Program-made: the position numbers and the translations under genes | In this document: piece by piece, positions 1 through 6,942 of the stretch | Layout: each line of letters starts with the position of its first letter | Position numbering within the stretch: the first letter of the stretch is position 1 | NCBI GenBank assembly: GCA_030041195.1 | Contig: JASHOI010000160.1 | Coordinates: forward strand, 1-6,942 | Source of the DNA: Streptosporangiaceae bacterium | GTDB lineage: Bacteria > Actinomycetota > Actinomycetes > Streptosporangiales > Streptosporangiaceae | Reading direction: 5' to 3' | Length of the DNA stretch: 6,942 nt | Notes under the pieces: model-generated | What the model saw: the letters and a program-made list of their open reading frames with translations, nothing else | Databases searched by the model: none | Told to the model about the DNA's origin: nothing

Positions 1-1045
1 TGTCCTTGATGCCCACCGGCCGCCCGGCCAGCGGCCCGTCGGCGGCGCGCCGCGGCGCCCCGATCACCGACGCGACGGCGTTCAGCGGCCGGCCGAGCCG
101 CTCCAGGCGCTCGTAGGCGGCCAGCAGGTCGAGGTTGGACCGCTCGCAGGTCCGCCGGCCCTGCTCGATCTCGGTGATCAGCTCGACCACCCGGCGCAGC
201 ATCGGGCCCCTCAGCCCGCCGATGTGCGCGGGCACCTCGGTCGGGCGGTGCCGCACCATCAGGTCCCGGTAGATCCCGGAGTGGGTCTTGGCCGAGCGCC
301 GGTTGAACGCGACCAGCGGTGCGAGCGACCCTGGGAGGTCGTCCGGGTCGAATCCGTCGAAGCCCAGCGGCGTGACCGGGGCCTGGTCGAGAACCTCTCT
401 GGCTACCGCCACCAACAACGGTGCGTAGGCCGGGTCCTCGAGCCCGTCCGCGATCGACAGGTCGCTGACCGCGATCGCGGCCAGCATCGCCCCGTAGGCC
501 TCCTTGCCCCACAGGTAGCCCATGATGTGCTCGGCCGGCTCGGCGTCCGCGATGTCCGCGGCCACCGCGCGGACCCGGTCCGAGATCGTCCCGTCGACCT
601 CGCCGATCACGAACGTCTCCCGGCTGCCGCGCAGCACGACCCCCGGCGCGGTCACGTCGGCGCCGAAGTTCACGAAGGCCTCCACCACCCGGTCCGCCCC
701 GACCGCGGCGGCGAGCTGCTCGGCGTTCAGCCCGTTCTGCAGCGAGACCACGAACCCGCCGGAGTGCATCCGCCCGGCCAGGCTGGCCGCCGCGGCCGCC
801 GTGTGCTGTGACTTGACCGCGACCAGGACCGGCCCGTCCAGCCGCTCCGGCAGGTCCGCCGGCAGCACCGCCGGCACCCGGACGGTGAAGTTCTCGATCG
901 GCCCCTCGATCCGCAGGCCTTGCTCATTGATCGCCGCGACCACGGCCGGATCGGCGTCGCTGACCAGCACGTCGTGGCCGTCGCGGGCCAGCCCGGCGGC
1001 CACGGTGCCGCCGATCGCGCCACAGCCAAGCACCACATAGCGCAT
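1..1045 (-). CDS. Ketopantoate reductase-family oxidoreductase fused to an amidase-signature domain (3' part beyond window)
   Basis: Reading leftward from ATG at 1045 gives 348 codons without a stop, so the gene continues past the edge. Residues 1-310 are a PanE/ApbA-type NAD(P)H-dependent reductase. They show a Rossmann GCGAIG at 7-12, LQNG at 102-105, the probable catalytic lysine K181 in LWGK, and RPTE with the conserved glutamate E270. EIEQG at 292-296 and SNLDLL at 303-308 match the usual family C-terminus, and standalone members end near residue 300-310. Here the chain goes on through PLNAVASV into GPLAGRPVGIKD (337-348), which matches the start of amidase-signature enzymes, with K347 at the position of the catalytic lysine. 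The amidase Ser-Ser-Lys triad is otherwise outside the window. The Asn residues four and eight positions after the catalytic Lys in E. coli PanE are Gly185 and Ala189 here, so ketopantoate may not be the substrate. There is no clear Shine-Dalgarno sequence. The gene is divergent from the glycosylasparaginase operon. The reductase family is confident; the fusion is likely. Confidence 0.85.
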   Translation of the reverse strand, partial: MRYVVLGCGAIGGTVAAGLARDGHDVLVSDADPAVVAAINEQGLRIEGPIENFTVRVPAVLPADLPERLDGPVLVAVKSQHTAAAAASLAGRMHSGGFVVSLQNGLNAEQLAAAVGADRVVEAFVNFGADVTAPGVVLRGSRETFVIGEVDGTISDRVRAVAADIADAEPAEHIMGYLWGKEAYGAMLAAIAVSDLSIADGLEDPAYAPLLVAVAREVLDQAPVTPLGFDGFDPDDLPGSLAPLVAFNRRSAKTHSGIYRDLMVRHRPTEVPAHIGGLRGPMLRRVVELITEIEQGRRTCERSNLDLLAAYERLERLGRPLNAVASVIGAPRRAADGPLAGRPVGIKD

Positions 1046-1200: not shown

Positions 1201-2127
1201 ATGATTGCCAGCGAGCGGGGCGAGGTGGGCCTGGCCGCGGGCATGGACCTGCTGCGCGCCGGTGCGAGCGCCATGGACGCGGTCGAGGCAGCCGTCCGCG
1301 TCGTGGAGTCGAACGAGTCCGACCACTACGTCGGCGTTGGCGGGCTGCCGAACCTGCTCGGCGAGGTGGAGCTGGACGCGTCGATCATGGATGGGGCGAC
1401 CCGGCGGGCCGGGGCGGTTGCCGCGGTCACCGGGTTCCCGCACCCGATCTCGATCGCCCGGGCCGTCTGCGACCTGCTGCCGCAGCACCTGCTGCTGGTC
1501 GGCCCCGGAGCGGAGCGCTTTGCCGAGGAGGCCGGCATCGAGCGCGGGCCGACGCTGACCGACGAGGCGAAGAAGATGTGGCAGGACGGCCTGTCCGCGG
1601 CCGGGATCGAGGCCGCCGAGGCCAGGCACGGCCCCGGTGAGCGCGCCTACCGCGAGCAGGTCCTGGAGCGGCTCGCCTCGATGCCGGTGCCCGGCGGGCC
1701 GTGGGACACGGTCAACGTGCTCGCGCTCGACTCCGGCGGCAGCCTCGCGGTGGGCGTGAGCACCAGCGGATACCCGTGGAAGTACCCGGGCCGGGTCAGC
1801 GACTCGGCGATCATCGGCGCCGGCAACTACTGCGACAACGCGGTCGGCGGCGCGGCCTGCACCGGCCGCGGCGAGCTCGCGATCCGCGGCACGAGCGCCC
1901 GCTCGGTGCTGCGCGCGCTCGCGGCGGGCGCGGACCCGGCGCAGGCCTGCGCGGCCGCGCTGGCCGAGACCCTTGACCTGCCGGACGACTTCCGCACGCC
2001 GCTGCAGGCGCTTTGCCTGACACCGGACGGCCGGCACGGCGGGGCGTCTACGATCGCGGGGGCCAGCTACGCCGTGATGACGGCCGACGATGAGACGTTC
2101 CAGGTCGAGGAACGGAGGCAGATATGA
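1201..2127 (+). CDS. Glycosylasparaginase / isoaspartyl peptidase-family Ntn amidohydrolase
   Basis: The family hydrolyses the side-chain amide of N4-(beta-GlcNAc)-asparagine or isoaspartyl and beta-aspartyl bonds. It is made as a precursor that cleaves itself before a threonine, giving alpha and beta subunits. Visible here are GGLPNLLGEVELDASIMDG (47-65), the usual alpha-subunit signature, and WDT at 168-170. T170 should be the nucleophile and cleavage should fall between D169 and T170. STSG (187-190), PGRVSDS (196-202), IGAGNYCDN (205-213) and TGRGE (221-225) line the usual substrate pocket. The pattern is closer to the aspartylglucosaminidase branch than to plant-type asparaginases. The residue before DT is Trp instead of the His seen in human AGA. 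No signal peptide is seen, so it is probably cytoplasmic. The gene overlaps the M55 peptidase gene by ATGA. The true start is probably upstream at ATA 1189 (sequence ITPL then MIAS, matching family starts such as M-T-P-L); 1201 is the first canonical start. The natural substrate is unknown. Confidence 0.93.
   Translation: MIASERGEVGLAAGMDLLRAGASAMDAVEAAVRVVESNESDHYVGVGGLPNLLGEVELDASIMDGATRRAGAVAAVTGFPHPISIARAVCDLLPQHLLLVGPGAERFAEEAGIERGPTLTDEAKKMWQDGLSAAGIEAAEARHGPGERAYREQVLERLASMPVPGGPWDTVNVLALDSGGSLAVGVSTSGYPWKYPGRVSDSAIIGAGNYCDNAVGGAACTGRGELAIRGTSARSVLRALAAGADPAQACAAALAETLDLPDDFRTPLQALCLTPDGRHGGASTIAGASYAVMTADDETFQVEERRQI
2114..2118 (+). promoter_or_regulatory. Ribosome binding site GGAGG of the M55 peptidase gene
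   Basis: GGAGG lies inside the last codons of the glycosylasparaginase gene, 5 bases before the ATG at 2124. It supports that start and permits both reinitiation and independent loading at the ATGA junction. Confidence 0.75.
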
Positions 2128-2948
2128 AGGTCTTCCTGTCCAGCGACATGGAGGGGACCGCCGGCGTCGTCGACTGGGAACAGTGTGTCGGGGACGGCCC
2201 GCAGGCCGCCGCCGGGCGCAAGCTGCTGCTGGACGAGGTCAACGCGGCCATCGAGGGAGCGATGGCCGGCGGCGCCACCGAGATCGTGGTCAACGACTCG
2301 CACTCGACGATGCGGAACCTGCCGCCGGACGCGCTGGCCGGCGAGGCGTCCTACATATCCGGCAGCCACAAGCCGCTGTACATGATGCAGGGCCTGGACG
2401 GCAGCTTCGACGCGGTGCTGTTCGTGTCGTATCACGGCTCGGTCGGCGCGCCCGCCGGGCTCTCGCACACCTACAGCCCGCGGGTGGTCGTCGAGGCGCG
2501 GCTGGACGGCGTCGTGACCGGCGAGGCGGGCATCAACGCGCTGGTCGCGGCGCACTACGGGGTTCCGGTGGTGCTGGTGACCGGGGACCGCTGCGCCTGC
2601 GAGGAGACCGCGACGCTGATCCCGGGGGTGCACCCGGCCGTGGTCAAGGAGCCGGTCAGCCGGACCGCTGCGCACAGCCTGCATCCGTCCCGGGCCCGCG
2701 CGCTGATCAGGGACACCGCCGAGAAGGCGGTCGCCGGGGCGGGCGCCGCCGAGCCGCCGCCGCTGGCATCGGCCACGCTCGAGGTGTCGGTGCGCACCAC
2801 CGACATCGCCGAGGCCGCCAGCTGGGCCCGGGGCGTGGACCGGACCGGGCCGCGGGAGCTGCGCATCCACGGCGAGAACGCGCTGGCCACCTACCGCTCG
2901 TTCTGCGCCGCGATCCTGCTCACCCGGACGGTCGCTGACATCGTATGA
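2124..2948 (+). CDS. dppA: M55-family zinc D-aminopeptidase (DppA-like)
   Basis: DppA-type enzymes are cytoplasmic zinc aminopeptidases that release N-terminal D-amino acids such as D-Ala from short peptides. In Bacillus DppA belongs to a dipeptide-transport operon. The 274-residue length fits the family. All the residues known from B. subtilis DppA can be placed: D8 and E10 in SSDMEG, H60 in NDSH, H104 in SYHG, E134 in TGEAG, plus the proposed catalytic H115 in SHTYS. ISGSHKP (78-84) and GLNA-like GINAL (136-140) also fit. The N-terminus is intact and no export signal is visible. The gene overlaps both neighbours by ATGA, so translation is coupled across the operon. Beside a glycosylasparaginase and a probable amidase, it suggests stepwise breakdown of a peptide with unusual linkages or D-residues. 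Family assignment is firm; the exact substrate is not. Confidence 0.93.
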   Translation: MKVFLSSDMEGTAGVVDWEQCVGDGPQAAAGRKLLLDEVNAAIEGAMAGGATEIVVNDSHSTMRNLPPDALAGEASYISGSHKPLYMMQGLDGSFDAVLFVSYHGSVGAPAGLSHTYSPRVVVEARLDGVVTGEAGINALVAAHYGVPVVLVTGDRCACEETATLIPGVHPAVVKEPVSRTAAHSLHPSRARALIRDTAEKAVAGAGAAEPPPLASATLEVSVRTTDIAEAASWARGVDRTGPRELRIHGENALATYRSFCAAILLTRTVADIV

Positions 2949-3967
2949 ACGCCGTAACCGGGGGCGAGCGGCGGGCGTCGCGGCTGGTCGACATCGCCGA
3001 GGCGGTCGGCGTGCACGTGTCCACCGTGTCCCGGGTGCTGAACGGCGACCCGGCGCAGTCCATCCGGCCAGAGGTCTACGAGCGGATCCTGGAAACCGCC
3101 CGGCAGCAGGGCTACCGGCCGAACGCGCTGGCCCGGGCGCTGAAGCGGCAGCGCACCGGGGCGTTCGCGTTCGTGCTGCCGCTGGAGCGCAACCCGAGCT
3201 GGGCCCGGCTGCAGGGCGGCGCGCTGCGCCGGGCCAGCGAGCGCGGCTACGTCGTCATGATCATGGAAGAGCCGGCCGAGGACCCGAAGCCCCCCGGGGA
3301 CTACCGGTACCTGGTGGAGGAGAGCCGCGCCGACGGCCTGCTGCTCGCCACCCCGCTGCGGATCCCGGAGCACGTCGGCGGGGTGACCGGGGCTCCGCAC
3401 GTCTACGTGAACCGCCGCGGTCCCGACCGCGGCAACGACGTGGTGATGGACGAGCCCGGGGCGGTCCGGCTGTTCCTCGACCACGCGGCCGGTCTCGGCC
3501 ACCGCAGCTTCGCGCTCATCGACGGCGAGCCCGCGGTGGACACCGTGCACCGCAGGGCCACGGCGGCGCGGCGGATCTGCGCGGCGCGCGGCCACGACCT
3601 CACCGTCCGGCACACGGCCTCGACCGAGGACGGCGGCTGGGAGGCCGCGACGAAGATACTGCGCCGCGGCCGGCTGCCGACCGCGTGCGGCGTGGGCAGC
3701 CTCAACCAGCTGTTCGGCGTCATGGCGGCGCTGCGCACCGCGGGCGTGGCGGTGCCCGGCGACATGTCCGTGGTCAGCTTCGACGAGGACCAGTGCCTGG
3801 CCTTCCTCGAGGTCCCGGTCAGCAGCGTGTGCATGCCGCTGCCGGAGCTCGGCGCCGCAGCGGTCGACGCGCTGATCGCGCGCATCGACGGAACCCCGGC
3901 CGGCGACGTGATGATCAGCGAGCCGATGAGCCTGTGCCGGCGCGCCTCGGTGGCCCCGCCTCGCTAG
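2945..3967 (+). CDS. LacI-family transcriptional regulator
   Basis: The protein has 340 residues, the standard LacI length. The DNA-binding domain is at about 12-68. It has the recognition segment VSTVSRVLNG (25-34), YRPNALARALK (57-67) as hinge helix, and a start close to the motif. The periplasmic-binding-protein-like sensor domain follows. It carries SRADGLLLATP (127-137), VVMDEPGAVRL (166-176), GHRSFALIDGE (185-195), and near the end MSVVSFDEDQCLAFLEVP (274-291), the usual effector-pocket region. Such proteins normally repress a nearby catabolic operon until a sugar, nucleoside or other small ligand binds. It is the last gene of the operon and starts inside the peptidase stop (ATGA). No Shine-Dalgarno sequence is visible, which suggests translational coupling and autoregulation. 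Likely targets are the dyads between 1052 and 1143. The ligand cannot be read from the sequence; a product of amide breakdown is an inference. Confidence 0.95.
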   Translation: MNAVTGGERRASRLVDIAEAVGVHVSTVSRVLNGDPAQSIRPEVYERILETARQQGYRPNALARALKRQRTGAFAFVLPLERNPSWARLQGGALRRASERGYVVMIMEEPAEDPKPPGDYRYLVEESRADGLLLATPLRIPEHVGGVTGAPHVYVNRRGPDRGNDVVMDEPGAVRLFLDHAAGLGHRSFALIDGEPAVDTVHRRATAARRICAARGHDLTVRHTASTEDGGWEAATKILRRGRLPTACGVGSLNQLFGVMAALRTAGVAVPGDMSVVSFDEDQCLAFLEVPVSSVCMPLPELGAAAVDALIARIDGTPAGDVMISEPMSLCRRASVAPPR

Positions 3968-4109: not shown

Positions 4110-4994
4110 ATGAGCAAGCTGTCTATGCCGCCCGCCTGGCAGGGGCCGCTCCCCGAGGCCACGCCACCGTCGGGCATGGCCGTCCACCAGCTGCCCACCG
4201 GCACCTATGAGACCAGGGCTGCCTTTGCCTTCACCGGCGGCTCGTTCCGCGACAAGCGCCGCTTCGCGGCGACGGCGATCCTGGTCACGCACCCCGAGGG
4301 CGATCTTCTGATCGATGCCGGCTTCGGCTCCGGTGTCGCGGCTCACGTCCACGCTCAGCCCTGGTTCGCGCGCGCTCCCTACCGGGCAGCCGGCACCGCC
4401 AGCGAGCAACTCGACGCCAGCGGCTACGACCGGGGCCGGCTGCGCGGCGTGCTGATCACGCATTCCCACTGGGACCACGTGAGCGGCCTCGACCAGCTGC
4501 AGGTGCCCATCTGGACCAACGCGGGCGAGCTGCAGTACGCGGCGACAGCGCGGGACGGGAAAGTGTTCCGGACCGTGTCAGAGGGTCACGAGATCCACCG
4601 CTACGAATTCGGTAACGCGCCGTACCTCGGGTTCGCGTCGAGCTACGACGTGTACCGCGACGGCTCGGTCGTCGTGGCACTGGCCGGGGGGCACACGACC
4701 GGCTCAGTGATCGTCTTTGTCACGCTGCCGGCCGGCCAGCGCTATGCCTTCATCGGCGACGTGGCCTGGCAGCTTGAGGGCATCGGCAAGCCGGCGCAGC
4801 GGCCGCCGCTGATGCGCAAGCTGGCCGACGTCGACCCCGGCCAGGTGCGCGAAGACCTGCTCCGGGTCGCTTCGCTCGCTGGGCTGATGCAGGTCGTGCC
4901 GGCGCACGACGTCAGGGCGTACGACGGGATCCCGCTGCTGGCCGGCGCTGAGCAGCCGGGCCGGACCGGTACACCGCCGTCGCGATCTGGATGA
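4110..4994 (+). CDS. Metallo-beta-lactamase-fold hydrolase, lactonase-like
   Basis: From the ATG at 4110 the protein has 294 residues. It has the dinuclear zinc motif HSHWDH (118-123: H118, H120, D122, H123), the third histidine H195 in GGHTTGS, the bridging aspartate D217 in FIGD, and H266 in VPAHD. All the metal ligands expected of the fold are therefore present. The leading DLLIDAGFG (65-73) and the overall arrangement resemble the N-acyl-homoserine-lactonase-like branch, which opens lactone or ester rings. Other hydrolytic roles of this large superfamily cannot be excluded. No convincing signal peptide is seen. The frame is open back to a TTG at 4026, but that start lies 12 bases from the terminator and adds a low-complexity Arg-rich stretch. 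ATG 4110 is preferred despite a weak ribosome binding site; 4125 is another option. The last 83 bp overlap the LysR gene on the other strand. Confidence 0.88.
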   Translation: MSKLSMPPAWQGPLPEATPPSGMAVHQLPTGTYETRAAFAFTGGSFRDKRRFAATAILVTHPEGDLLIDAGFGSGVAAHVHAQPWFARAPYRAAGTASEQLDASGYDRGRLRGVLITHSHWDHVSGLDQLQVPIWTNAGELQYAATARDGKVFRTVSEGHEIHRYEFGNAPYLGFASSYDVYRDGSVVVALAGGHTTGSVIVFVTLPAGQRYAFIGDVAWQLEGIGKPAQRPPLMRKLADVDPGQVREDLLRVASLAGLMQVVPAHDVRAYDGIPLLAGAEQPGRTGTPPSRSG

Positions 4995-5832
4995 GCGAGC
5001 GGATCAGCGGGCTGGCGTCGGCTCTGCCCCACGCGACAACCAGCCGGCTGGGCCTCATGTCAGCGAGCGGGACCACGGTGAGCCCCGGCGGCCACGCGTG
5101 ACCCAGCGGTGTCAGCGGCGCCAGCCCGATCGTGCCGCTCCACAAGACGGCCTGCACGCATTCGCCGACCGTGCGGACCACCGGCCCGTCGCGAAGTGTG
5201 CCGCCGGGCTCGGTGCCGTTCCAGTAGGCCCGCCACAGCGGGTCGGTTCCGTCGGGGAACTGGAACCACCGGCGGTCATCAAGGTCGGACACCCGGAGGG
5301 TGTCACGACGCGCGAGCGGGTCGTCGGCGCGCAAGACGACCCCGACGGGATCCGAGCGCAGCACGCGGGCGCTGATCCCGGTGCGGTCGAACGGCATCCG
5401 GGTGAGCGCGGCGTCGACCAGCCCGGCCCGCAGCCCGGTGGTCGGGTCGGTGAGGTCCGCTTCCCGGATCCGGACGTGCACCCCCGGGTTACGCTCGCGG
5501 AACGCGTCGGCGAGCCCGGTGCCGGCCTCCTCGCCGCTGTCGGCGAGAGTGCCGATCGTGAACGTCGCCGTTCCGGCCGCCGCGGTGACCCGGGCCCGGG
5601 CGTGCTCGGCGTGCTCGAGCAGGGCACGCGCCTCGTCGTAGAGCGCCGTTCCCGCTGGTGTGAGCGTGACCCCGGCGGGTGAGCGGTGCAGCAGCAGAGC
5701 GCCGACATCGGTTTCGAGTTGCTTGATGGCCCGGCTCAGCGGTGGCTGGGTCATGTGCAGGCGGGCGGCGGCGCGCCCGAAGTGGCGCTCCTCGGCGACC
5801 GCGACGAAGTAGCGGAGCGAGCGCAGGTCCAT
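4912..5832 (-). CDS. LysR-family transcriptional regulator
   Basis: With ATG at 5832 the protein has 306 residues, a standard LysR length. The winged helix-turn-helix occupies residues 1-60 and is canonical: LRYFVAVAEE, FGRAAARLHMTQPPLSRAIKQLE, then LLLHRSPAGVTLTPAG. The effector-binding domain runs from about 90 to 288, with IGTLADSGEE at its first strand and GTIGLAPLTPLG (233-244) in the second lobe. An in-frame TTG at 5841 would add three residues. ATG 5832 is chosen because family members begin with M-D/E-L-R-L-R-Y-F. Its tail, about 18 residues rich in Arg, Pro and Ala, extends beyond the usual domain end and is encoded within the overlap with the convergent hydrolase gene. It follows the LuxR-type gene by 30 bases on the same strand, so both may share a transcript. 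The target and ligand are unknown; the convergent hydrolase gene is a possible target. Confidence 0.95.
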   Translation of the reverse strand: MDLRSLRYFVAVAEERHFGRAAARLHMTQPPLSRAIKQLETDVGALLLHRSPAGVTLTPAGTALYDEARALLEHAEHARARVTAAAGTATFTIGTLADSGEEAGTGLADAFRERNPGVHVRIREADLTDPTTGLRAGLVDAALTRMPFDRTGISARVLRSDPVGVVLRADDPLARRDTLRVSDLDDRRWFQFPDGTDPLWRAYWNGTEPGGTLRDGPVVRTVGECVQAVLWSGTIGLAPLTPLGHAWPPGLTVVPLADMRPSRLVVAWGRADASPLIRSLIQIATAVYRSGPAAQRRPAAGSRRTP

Positions 5833-5841
5833 TGCCGGCAA
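5832..5841. promoter_or_regulatory. 10-bp palindrome TTGCCGGCAA at the LysR start codon
   Basis: This perfect palindrome spans the LysR ATG and its immediate upstream bases, within the 30-base gap to the preceding stop. It could mediate autoregulation or hide the start codon in RNA. It may equally be chance in GC-rich DNA. Confidence 0.2.
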
Positions 5842-5862: not shown

Positions 5863-6942
5863 TTAGCCGGCGGCCGCCGGGTCGCCGAGCAGGTCCGGGA
5901 GCTCGGACCGGGCGGCGACGCCGAGCTTCGGGTAGGCCTTGTACAGGTGGTAGCCCACGGTCCGCGGGCTGAGGAACAGCTGGGCCGCGATGTCGCGGTT
6001 GGACAGGCCCTGCGCGGCCAGCCGGACGATCTGCAGCTCCTGCGGGGTCAGCTGGCCGAGCGGACCGGGCCCGCGGCCCTCCGGGGTCGCCACGCCGGTG
6101 GCGCGCAGCTCGGTGCCGGCCCGGGCGCTCCACGGCTCCGCACCCAGCCGGTCGAAGATCTCCAGGGCCGCGCGCAGCTGGGTCCGTGCCTCCGCCTTGC
6201 GCCGCGCGCGGCGTAGCCATTCCCCGTAGAGGCTGTGCGTTCGGGCCCGTTCAAAGGGCCGGTCATCGCGCTGATGCGCATCCAGCGCCGCCGCGTACAG
6301 GGTCTCGGCCTCCGGGTCGGGTGCGAGCAGCGCCCGGCAGCGCAGGACCAGCGCGTCGATCCAGGGCTGGCCGGCTCGCGCGCCCCATTGCGCGAACCGC
6401 TCCATTGACGCCGTGGCGCGGGCCGGCTCGCCGATCCGGACCGCGGCCTCGACGAGGTCGGGGGCACTGCGCATGACCGACACGTGGTGCCGCGCCGGGC
6501 TCTCGGCGAGCGTCGTCAGCCGGCCGAGCGCCGCTTCCACCCGGCCGGCGCCGAGGTCGAGCACGCCGAGCGACCAGTGCGCCCAGCCGCTGCCGGGTGC
6601 GGCGTTGCCCGCGGTGGTCGCGGTCATCGTGTCGTCGGCGAGCTTCCGGCACCGCGCCTCGTCGCCCGCCGTCGCGGCGAGGTACGCGAGCAGGCCGCTG
6701 ACCTGGCTCACCCAGTGCCACTGGCCGCTGTCGTCGGCAACCTGGAGCGCCTCGGCCGCGGTCGTCAGCGCGTCGCGGTGCCGGCCGTGGAACAGCTCGG
6801 CCTCGGCCAGGAAAAACAGAATGGTCGGCAGCAGGCCGATCCGGCCCTGCCCGCGCGCCTCGGCGGCCAGCGCCGCCGCGACCTCGTGGGTCTGCGCGTC
6901 CTGGCCGACGATCAGGCCGGCGCCGCACACCTGGGCCAGGTC
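5863..6942 (-). CDS. LAL-type LuxR-family regulator, C-terminal part (5' part beyond window)
   Basis: The frame enters from the right edge without a start and ends at TAA 5863-5865, leaving 359 visible codons. The last 62 residues (DNA 5866-6051) are a LuxR helix-turn-helix. They include LTPQELQIVRLAAQGLSNRD, then IAAQLFLSPRTVGYHLYKAYPKLGV. The preceding 300 residues are Ala-, Leu- and Arg-rich helical repeats resembling the TPR-like region of large ATP-binding LuxR (LAL/MalT-like) activators, for example EAELFHGRHRDALTTAAEAL. The N-terminal Walker-type ATPase domain expected for such proteins would lie outside the window. A GTG at 6930 could act as a start, but helical-repeat sequence continues to the edge, so the gene is treated as 5'-truncated by the window. 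It lies 30 bases before the LysR gene in the same direction. Its targets are unknown. Confidence 0.9.
   Translation of the reverse strand, partial: DLAQVCGAGLIVGQDAQTHEVAAALAAEARGQGRIGLLPTILFFLAEAELFHGRHRDALTTAAEALQVADDSGQWHWVSQVSGLLAYLAATAGDEARCRKLADDTMTATTAGNAAPGSGWAHWSLGVLDLGAGRVEAALGRLTTLAESPARHHVSVMRSAPDLVEAAVRIGEPARATASMERFAQWGARAGQPWIDALVLRCRALLAPDPEAETLYAAALDAHQRDDRPFERARTHSLYGEWLRRARRKAEARTQLRAALEIFDRLGAEPWSARAGTELRATGVATPEGRGPGPLGQLTPQELQIVRLAAQGLSNRDIAAQLFLSPRTVGYHLYKAYPKLGVAARSELPDLLGDPAAAG

Follow-up and report, generated by a model that had tools for sequence, protein, structure and literature searches.

The left end of a 6,942-nucleotide stretch of DNA from a Streptosporangiaceae bacterium (contig JASHOI010000160.1 of assembly GCA_030041195.1; hereafter the window, meaning this whole stretch) raises the question of whether a gene that begins as a ketopantoate reductase (KPR) and leaves the stretch as it starts to resemble an amidase-signature (AS) enzyme encodes one protein with two active sites and, if so, what such a protein would do. 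A first-pass annotation had proposed a single polypeptide joining an oxidoreductase to an amide hydrolase. Our analyses indicate that the architecture is almost certainly real and that the window encodes the N-terminal half of a reductase-amidase fusion protein, of which these parts are visible:

2..1045, minus strand: first 348 residues encoded by the KPR-AS fusion gene, starting at the ATG at 1045 and leaving the window at its left edge.
155..1045, minus strand: KPR-like dehydrogenase domain, residues 1-297 (PF02558; N104, K181 and E270; an acidic D30).
2..154, minus strand: start of the AS domain (residues 298-348), which the window edge truncates immediately past the catalytic lysine.
95..142, minus strand: joint helix, residues 302-317, which in the fused model falls within the part that resembles AS folds.
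5..7, minus strand: K347, the lysine of the AS triad.

No stop interrupts the minus-strand frame at 2-1054 through base 2, which bears out the earlier statement that the reductase frame continues to the window edge and runs into an AS domain. Read from the ATG at 1045 it carries QNG at residues 103-105, K181, TE at 269-270 and PLNAVASV, and then GPLAGRPVGIKD at the end of its 348 residues, with the catalytic lysine at K347 as originally numbered. PF02558 was matched with 93.3 bits against a cut-off of 22.2, over residues 7-154 of the longer reading from 1054; the PF01425 profile gave no match to the window protein, which includes no more of the AS domain than its first 51 residues. Other frames in the window are also open, so an open frame alone is little proof of coding, and the high G+C content, with which long spurious frames are common in the window, is what would favour the fusion being an assembly error or a frameshift, an explanation to which we assign a negligible probability on the basis of the relatives.

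Scanning a single genome for each species produced 20 loci that matched through the last residue of the window, and 19 of them encode the fusion as a single uninterrupted chain of 689-861 amino acids (counted from the first start codon), the frame of the 20th, L019, being broken by a run of N. Most full-length relatives have ~700-735 amino acids, and none has a stop soon past the joint. The nearest relative found, L001, is 90% identical, and in it an entire AS domain follows the same joint, which also occurs in the isolates Microbispora rosea ATCC 12950, M. bryophytorum, M. hainanensis and Microtetraspora sp. NBRC 13810. A domain search on the full-length proteins of L012, L020 and L001 matched PF01425 with 242-257 bits against a cut-off of 27, and PF02558 too. 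When the KPR part was used as the query in a search of protein clusters (proteins of ~390-1250 residues, E <= 1e-10, 7995 candidates scored), 1586 long clusters matched, and both PF02558 and PF01425 were present in 120 of the 120 matches listed. Across residues 291-348 the window and L001 differ by 2, 1 and 17 bases at codon positions 1, 2 and 3, respectively, and in 3 of 58 amino acids; this codon-position pattern, and the same joint in 19 of the 20 loci, argue that the joint is coding. The recurrence of that joint in isolates and in metagenome-assembled genomes (MAGs) of several groups contradicts a frameshift joining two genes and, with the codon-position pattern across it, refutes an artefactual origin for the relatives.

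Background to the second half is the catalytic triad of the AS family, Lys/cis-Ser/Ser. The pair of serines expected after K347 was found in the relatives: K347, S421 and S445 (L012 numbering) are present in all 49, the window showing K347 alone. In both halves the residues presumed to be catalytic are in fact invariant in the 49 fused sequences, as are L278, P281, I293, E294, R298, C300, N304, L305, L307 and R313 in the region of the joint, and pairwise distances in the KPR half follow those in the AS half with r = 0.91 (1176 pairs, which are non-independent). We infer from these sequence comparisons that the fusion is under selection as one protein. The structure model of a full-length fused protein had a pLDDT of 93 and a pTM of 0.90. 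Two irregular copies were noted by the way: the amidase half of L001 (1173-3491) has, by eye, a low-complexity insert of ~60 residues (772 amino acids in all, versus 713 in L012), and L064 (5738-7177) has an amidase half without a KPR half, its upstream reading appearing non-coding, and is possibly a misassembled or broken copy.

Where the two domains meet had been placed in residues 310-337, which proved too late. Structure matches to KPRs cover model residues 1 to ~291-299, and most matches to AS enzymes begin at 298-299 (a few at 204-207, 280 or 311), so that in the predicted structure the domains meet near residue 297/298. These same limits led us to reject the joint helix, 302-317, as the final helix of the classic KPR fold. 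Segment 302-317 is also the C-terminal tail of unfused relatives, two of which, in L049 (317 amino acids) and L059 (318 amino acids), reach a stop just past it; this tail may be what is left of an amidase since lost, or may be an older extension of the KPR. The terminal stretch of a distant unfused gene in L080 looks vaguely similar to the joint segment by eye.

What, then, does the reductase half reduce or oxidise? The description of it as ketopantoate-reductase-like stands for the fold and the catalytic residues and fails for the ketopantoate pocket, when judged by the residue roles of Escherichia coli PanE given in PMC3478992 and PMC10127515. PanE K72 and the catalytic N98, K176 and E256 are retained in 34 of 34 aligned rows, and in the same 34 rows the pocket residues are replaced (N180 by G/S, N184 by A/F/Y/W, N194 by I and N241 by T/S/A); PanE S244 aligns with a Gly that adjoins an invariant Ser. 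The TIGR00745 score, 117.2, is below the curated cut-off of 141.35. PF08546, the KPR C-terminal domain, for which a few relatives have a precomputed match, had no listed match in the window and reached 20.7 bits against a cut-off of 22.7 in L012; the C-terminal KPR domain still matches KPRs by fold. D30 is invariant in the fused sequences, at a position where E. coli PanE reads L30-R31. An acidic residue at such a position usually favours NAD, which suggests that the reductase half is NAD-using, a preference that would suit oxidation in a catabolic path. The chemistry is likely that of 2-oxo/2-hydroxy acid redox, and the replaced pocket and acidic D30 make a catabolic 2-hydroxy/2-oxo-acid dehydrogenase likelier than an enzyme of the pantothenate pathway, with ketopantoate an unlikely substrate.

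The same residues bear on a proposal that the protein degrades pantothenate, the AS half cutting it and the KPR half oxidising the pantoate. The KPR reaction yields pantoate, of which pantothenate is an amide, so the chemistry would fit. With the PanE pocket replaced throughout, though its catalytic residues are kept, and with no gene of the coenzyme A (CoA) pathway recognised among the scanned neighbours (labelled from representatives only, many having no label), we regard this proposal as very improbable.

The fusion is patchy in the genomes that we sampled by drawing, where only the top few candidates per genome were scored. A phylum-wide draw matched 1 of 396 genomes, the centre genome itself; the class of L002 gave 2 of 199 and that of Microbispora 7 of 394 (centre included in both), every one of the seven having a frame of 714-777 codons. 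For the family that contains Microbispora rosea, 27 of 250 genomes matched, and our own reading of these found 25 fused, one with the KPR alone (G416) and one with the amidase part alone (G450). The named loci are mostly from Actinomycetota, L011 being labelled Dormiibacterota and L019 Acidobacteria, both MAGs. Unfused relatives exist as well: clusters of ~175-555 residues that match L049 at E <= 1e-30 numbered 3021 among 7999 scored, a count that includes fragments of fused proteins. One genome, G582, has both an unfused KPR (L049, 2912-3865) and a fused copy (L048, 8001-10142), with a Peptidase_M55 (M55) gene in each locus.

How fused and unfused forms are related was approached with trees. 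A first FastTree had 120 rows, fragments included, and a careful tree was made from 56 KPR rows, the rest being thinned. Dropped before it were P0242, P0273, P0277 and P0336 (odd or broken ends), P0290 and P0294 (which resemble truncated fused proteins), L009, L015, a distant PanE, and P0283, which has a proper unfused end and had been placed among the fused rows of the window's group, so that its removal favours the reading of the tree that we prefer. The careful tree has two changes between fused and unfused. One unfused set (U1, seven rows of the L059 type) falls together with 26 fused rows in a mixed group (support 86/87), and the other (U2, 13 rows of the L049 type) groups with the main fused rows and U1, apart from the window-type and Thermoleophilia fused rows (96/99). 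Taken alone, the starred branches force one change only for the unfused label. The root is a single long outgroup row, L080, with which the basal rows are fused. We therefore favour, in a tree that is weakly rooted, a single fusion, after which the amidase would have been lost once or twice; two losses are not established, since the starred branches force one change and the root rests on L080.

The question of function leads to the neighbouring genes, of which the window has three in a run divergent from the fusion gene:

1201..2127, plus strand: Asparaginase_2 (N-terminal nucleophile amidohydrolase), divergent from the fusion gene and recurring in related loci.
2124..2948, plus strand: M55 (D-aminopeptidase DppA type), overlapping the end of Asparaginase_2 and recurring in related loci.
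2945..3967, plus strand: LacI-type regulator in the same gene run; LacI genes are also found in L008, L009 and L063.

No transporter gene was seen in the window. We compared 38 loci, the window included, with same-contig duplicates removed by our own reading and the short loci L021-L047 left out; labels came from BLAST to representatives within the stretch available for each locus, and many neighbours are unlabelled. Dpp-type (dipeptide/oligopeptide) ATP-binding cassette transporter genes are present in 26 of the 38, M55 in 24, Asparaginase_2 in 23, an AstE/AspA-type deacylase in 16, and a Zn-dependent alcohol dehydrogenase and one type of short-chain dehydrogenase/reductase (SDR) in 11 each. 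At least one of transporter, Asparaginase_2 and M55 accompanies the gene in 33 loci and all three do so in 17; the layout of these three is kept in a 1.4-Mb actinobacterial genome (L074).

Other neighbours were recorded in passing. A methylaspartate ammonia-lyase gene is found in 13 of the 38 loci, often beside M55 (L048 125-1387 scores 545 bits with TIGR01502 against a cut-off of 286), and in L006 is followed by a CaiB-type CoA-transferase. In L008 (6570-9773) and L009 (7574-10777) the fusion is adjoined by genes for a thiamine pyrophosphate-dependent enzyme and for carboxyltransferase domains (PF02626, PF02682), which we take to be PxpC/PxpB-type 5-oxoprolinase subunits. The rest of the window holds a metallo-beta-lactamase-fold protein (4176-4994, plus strand), whose top NCBIfam match, an AttM-type lactonase, is far under its cut-off; a LysR regulator convergent with it (4912-5841, minus strand; ~80-base overlap); and a LuxR/TPR regulator (5863-6942, minus strand).

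Consistent with both the residues and the neighbouring genes is a bifunctional catabolic enzyme whose AS half frees a 2-hydroxy or 2-oxo acid that its KPR half converts, a coupling to which we give even chances. An unusual peptide or N-acyl amide would be imported and trimmed, the AS half would cleave an amide bond via Ser-cisSer-Lys catalysis, and the KPR half, with NAD, would interconvert the 2-hydroxy and 2-oxo forms of the freed acid, probably oxidising it; fusion would hold both steps at a fixed ratio and in sequence. More specific, and unlikely in our estimate, is an enzyme that de-caps peptides carrying a 2-hydroxyacyl group, for instance microbial ones in which lactyl, hydroxyisovaleryl or hydroxyphenyllactyl blocks the N-terminus. 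Following Dpp-type import the AS half would take off the cap and the KPR half would use NAD to oxidise the D-2-hydroxy acid; M55, Asparaginase_2 and the deacylases would dismantle the remaining D- or iso-linked peptide. That ammonia from the AS half might instead feed a reductive amination by the KPR half, in the manner of amidotransferases or opine dehydrogenases, we consider quite improbable.

Several observations weigh against the coupled enzyme. The window stops at K347-D348, and its own AS serines lie past the edge. Five of the 38 loci (L015, L016, L017, L062 and L077) lack all three core neighbours, some on short contigs; in L077, another 1.4-Mb genome, they are missing from the 10 kb examined. 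At the level of whole genomes of the same family M55 is present in 15 of 15 that have the fusion and in 13 of 15 that lack it, so that such co-occurrence is weak and only local clustering counts. A search for an amidase in the L049 and L059 stretches examined found no match better than E 0.3, and a dehydrogenase that occurs without an amidase means that the two activities need not be consecutive steps. The L049 locus nonetheless keeps a similar setting (SDR, Zn-dependent alcohol dehydrogenase, KPR, DUF885, RpiR, Asparaginase_2 and M55), which would fit the two halves acting on different molecules of one pathway, with fusion setting ratio and co-expression only. The co-evolution of the halves and their conserved joint suggest a constrained arrangement, though neither shows channelling, and we hold separate substrates to be possible, if somewhat doubtful.

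Both component families were already known, and their fusion is widespread in databases. The 1586 long clusters show that the architecture, which the first-pass annotation did not recognise as a standard one, is not unique; among the matches listed in open-licence literature we found no description of it, one elsewhere being possible. The names met for fused proteins ('amidase family protein', '2-dehydropantoate 2-reductase', 'hypothetical protein') have the consequence that a single functional name hides the other activity, and '2-dehydropantoate 2-reductase' may be miscounted as a CoA-pathway gene. A two-site enzyme whose gene recurs in loci for uptake and hydrolysis would point to a pathway by which unusual peptides or amides are used, on which we found no paper in that literature, and the natural occurrence of fused and unfused forms offers a chance to test what fusion adds.

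Among the closest known relatives of the reductase half is ketopantoate reductase PanE/ApbA (PF02558, TIGR00745; E. coli PanE and the Thermococcus kodakarensis KPR, 5hws/5ayv), from which the fusion differs in its replaced pocket, its acidic D30 (L30-R31 in PanE), a TIGR00745 score below cut-off and its attached amidase. The D-mandelate dehydrogenase of the KPR family (5x20, 3wfi, 8wl1) is 17-20% identical in structure alignment and has no amidase. Among AS enzymes, malonamidase E2 (1obj) and the amidase 2dc0 are 32-34% identical and consist of ~410-435 residues of the AS fold alone, whereas the AS domain of the fusion starts on the end of a dehydrogenase. The unfused KPR relatives (L049, L059, P0121 and others) share 53-59% identity with the window where the two align, have the same catalytic residues and the same C-terminal tail segment as the fusion, and stop soon after that tail.
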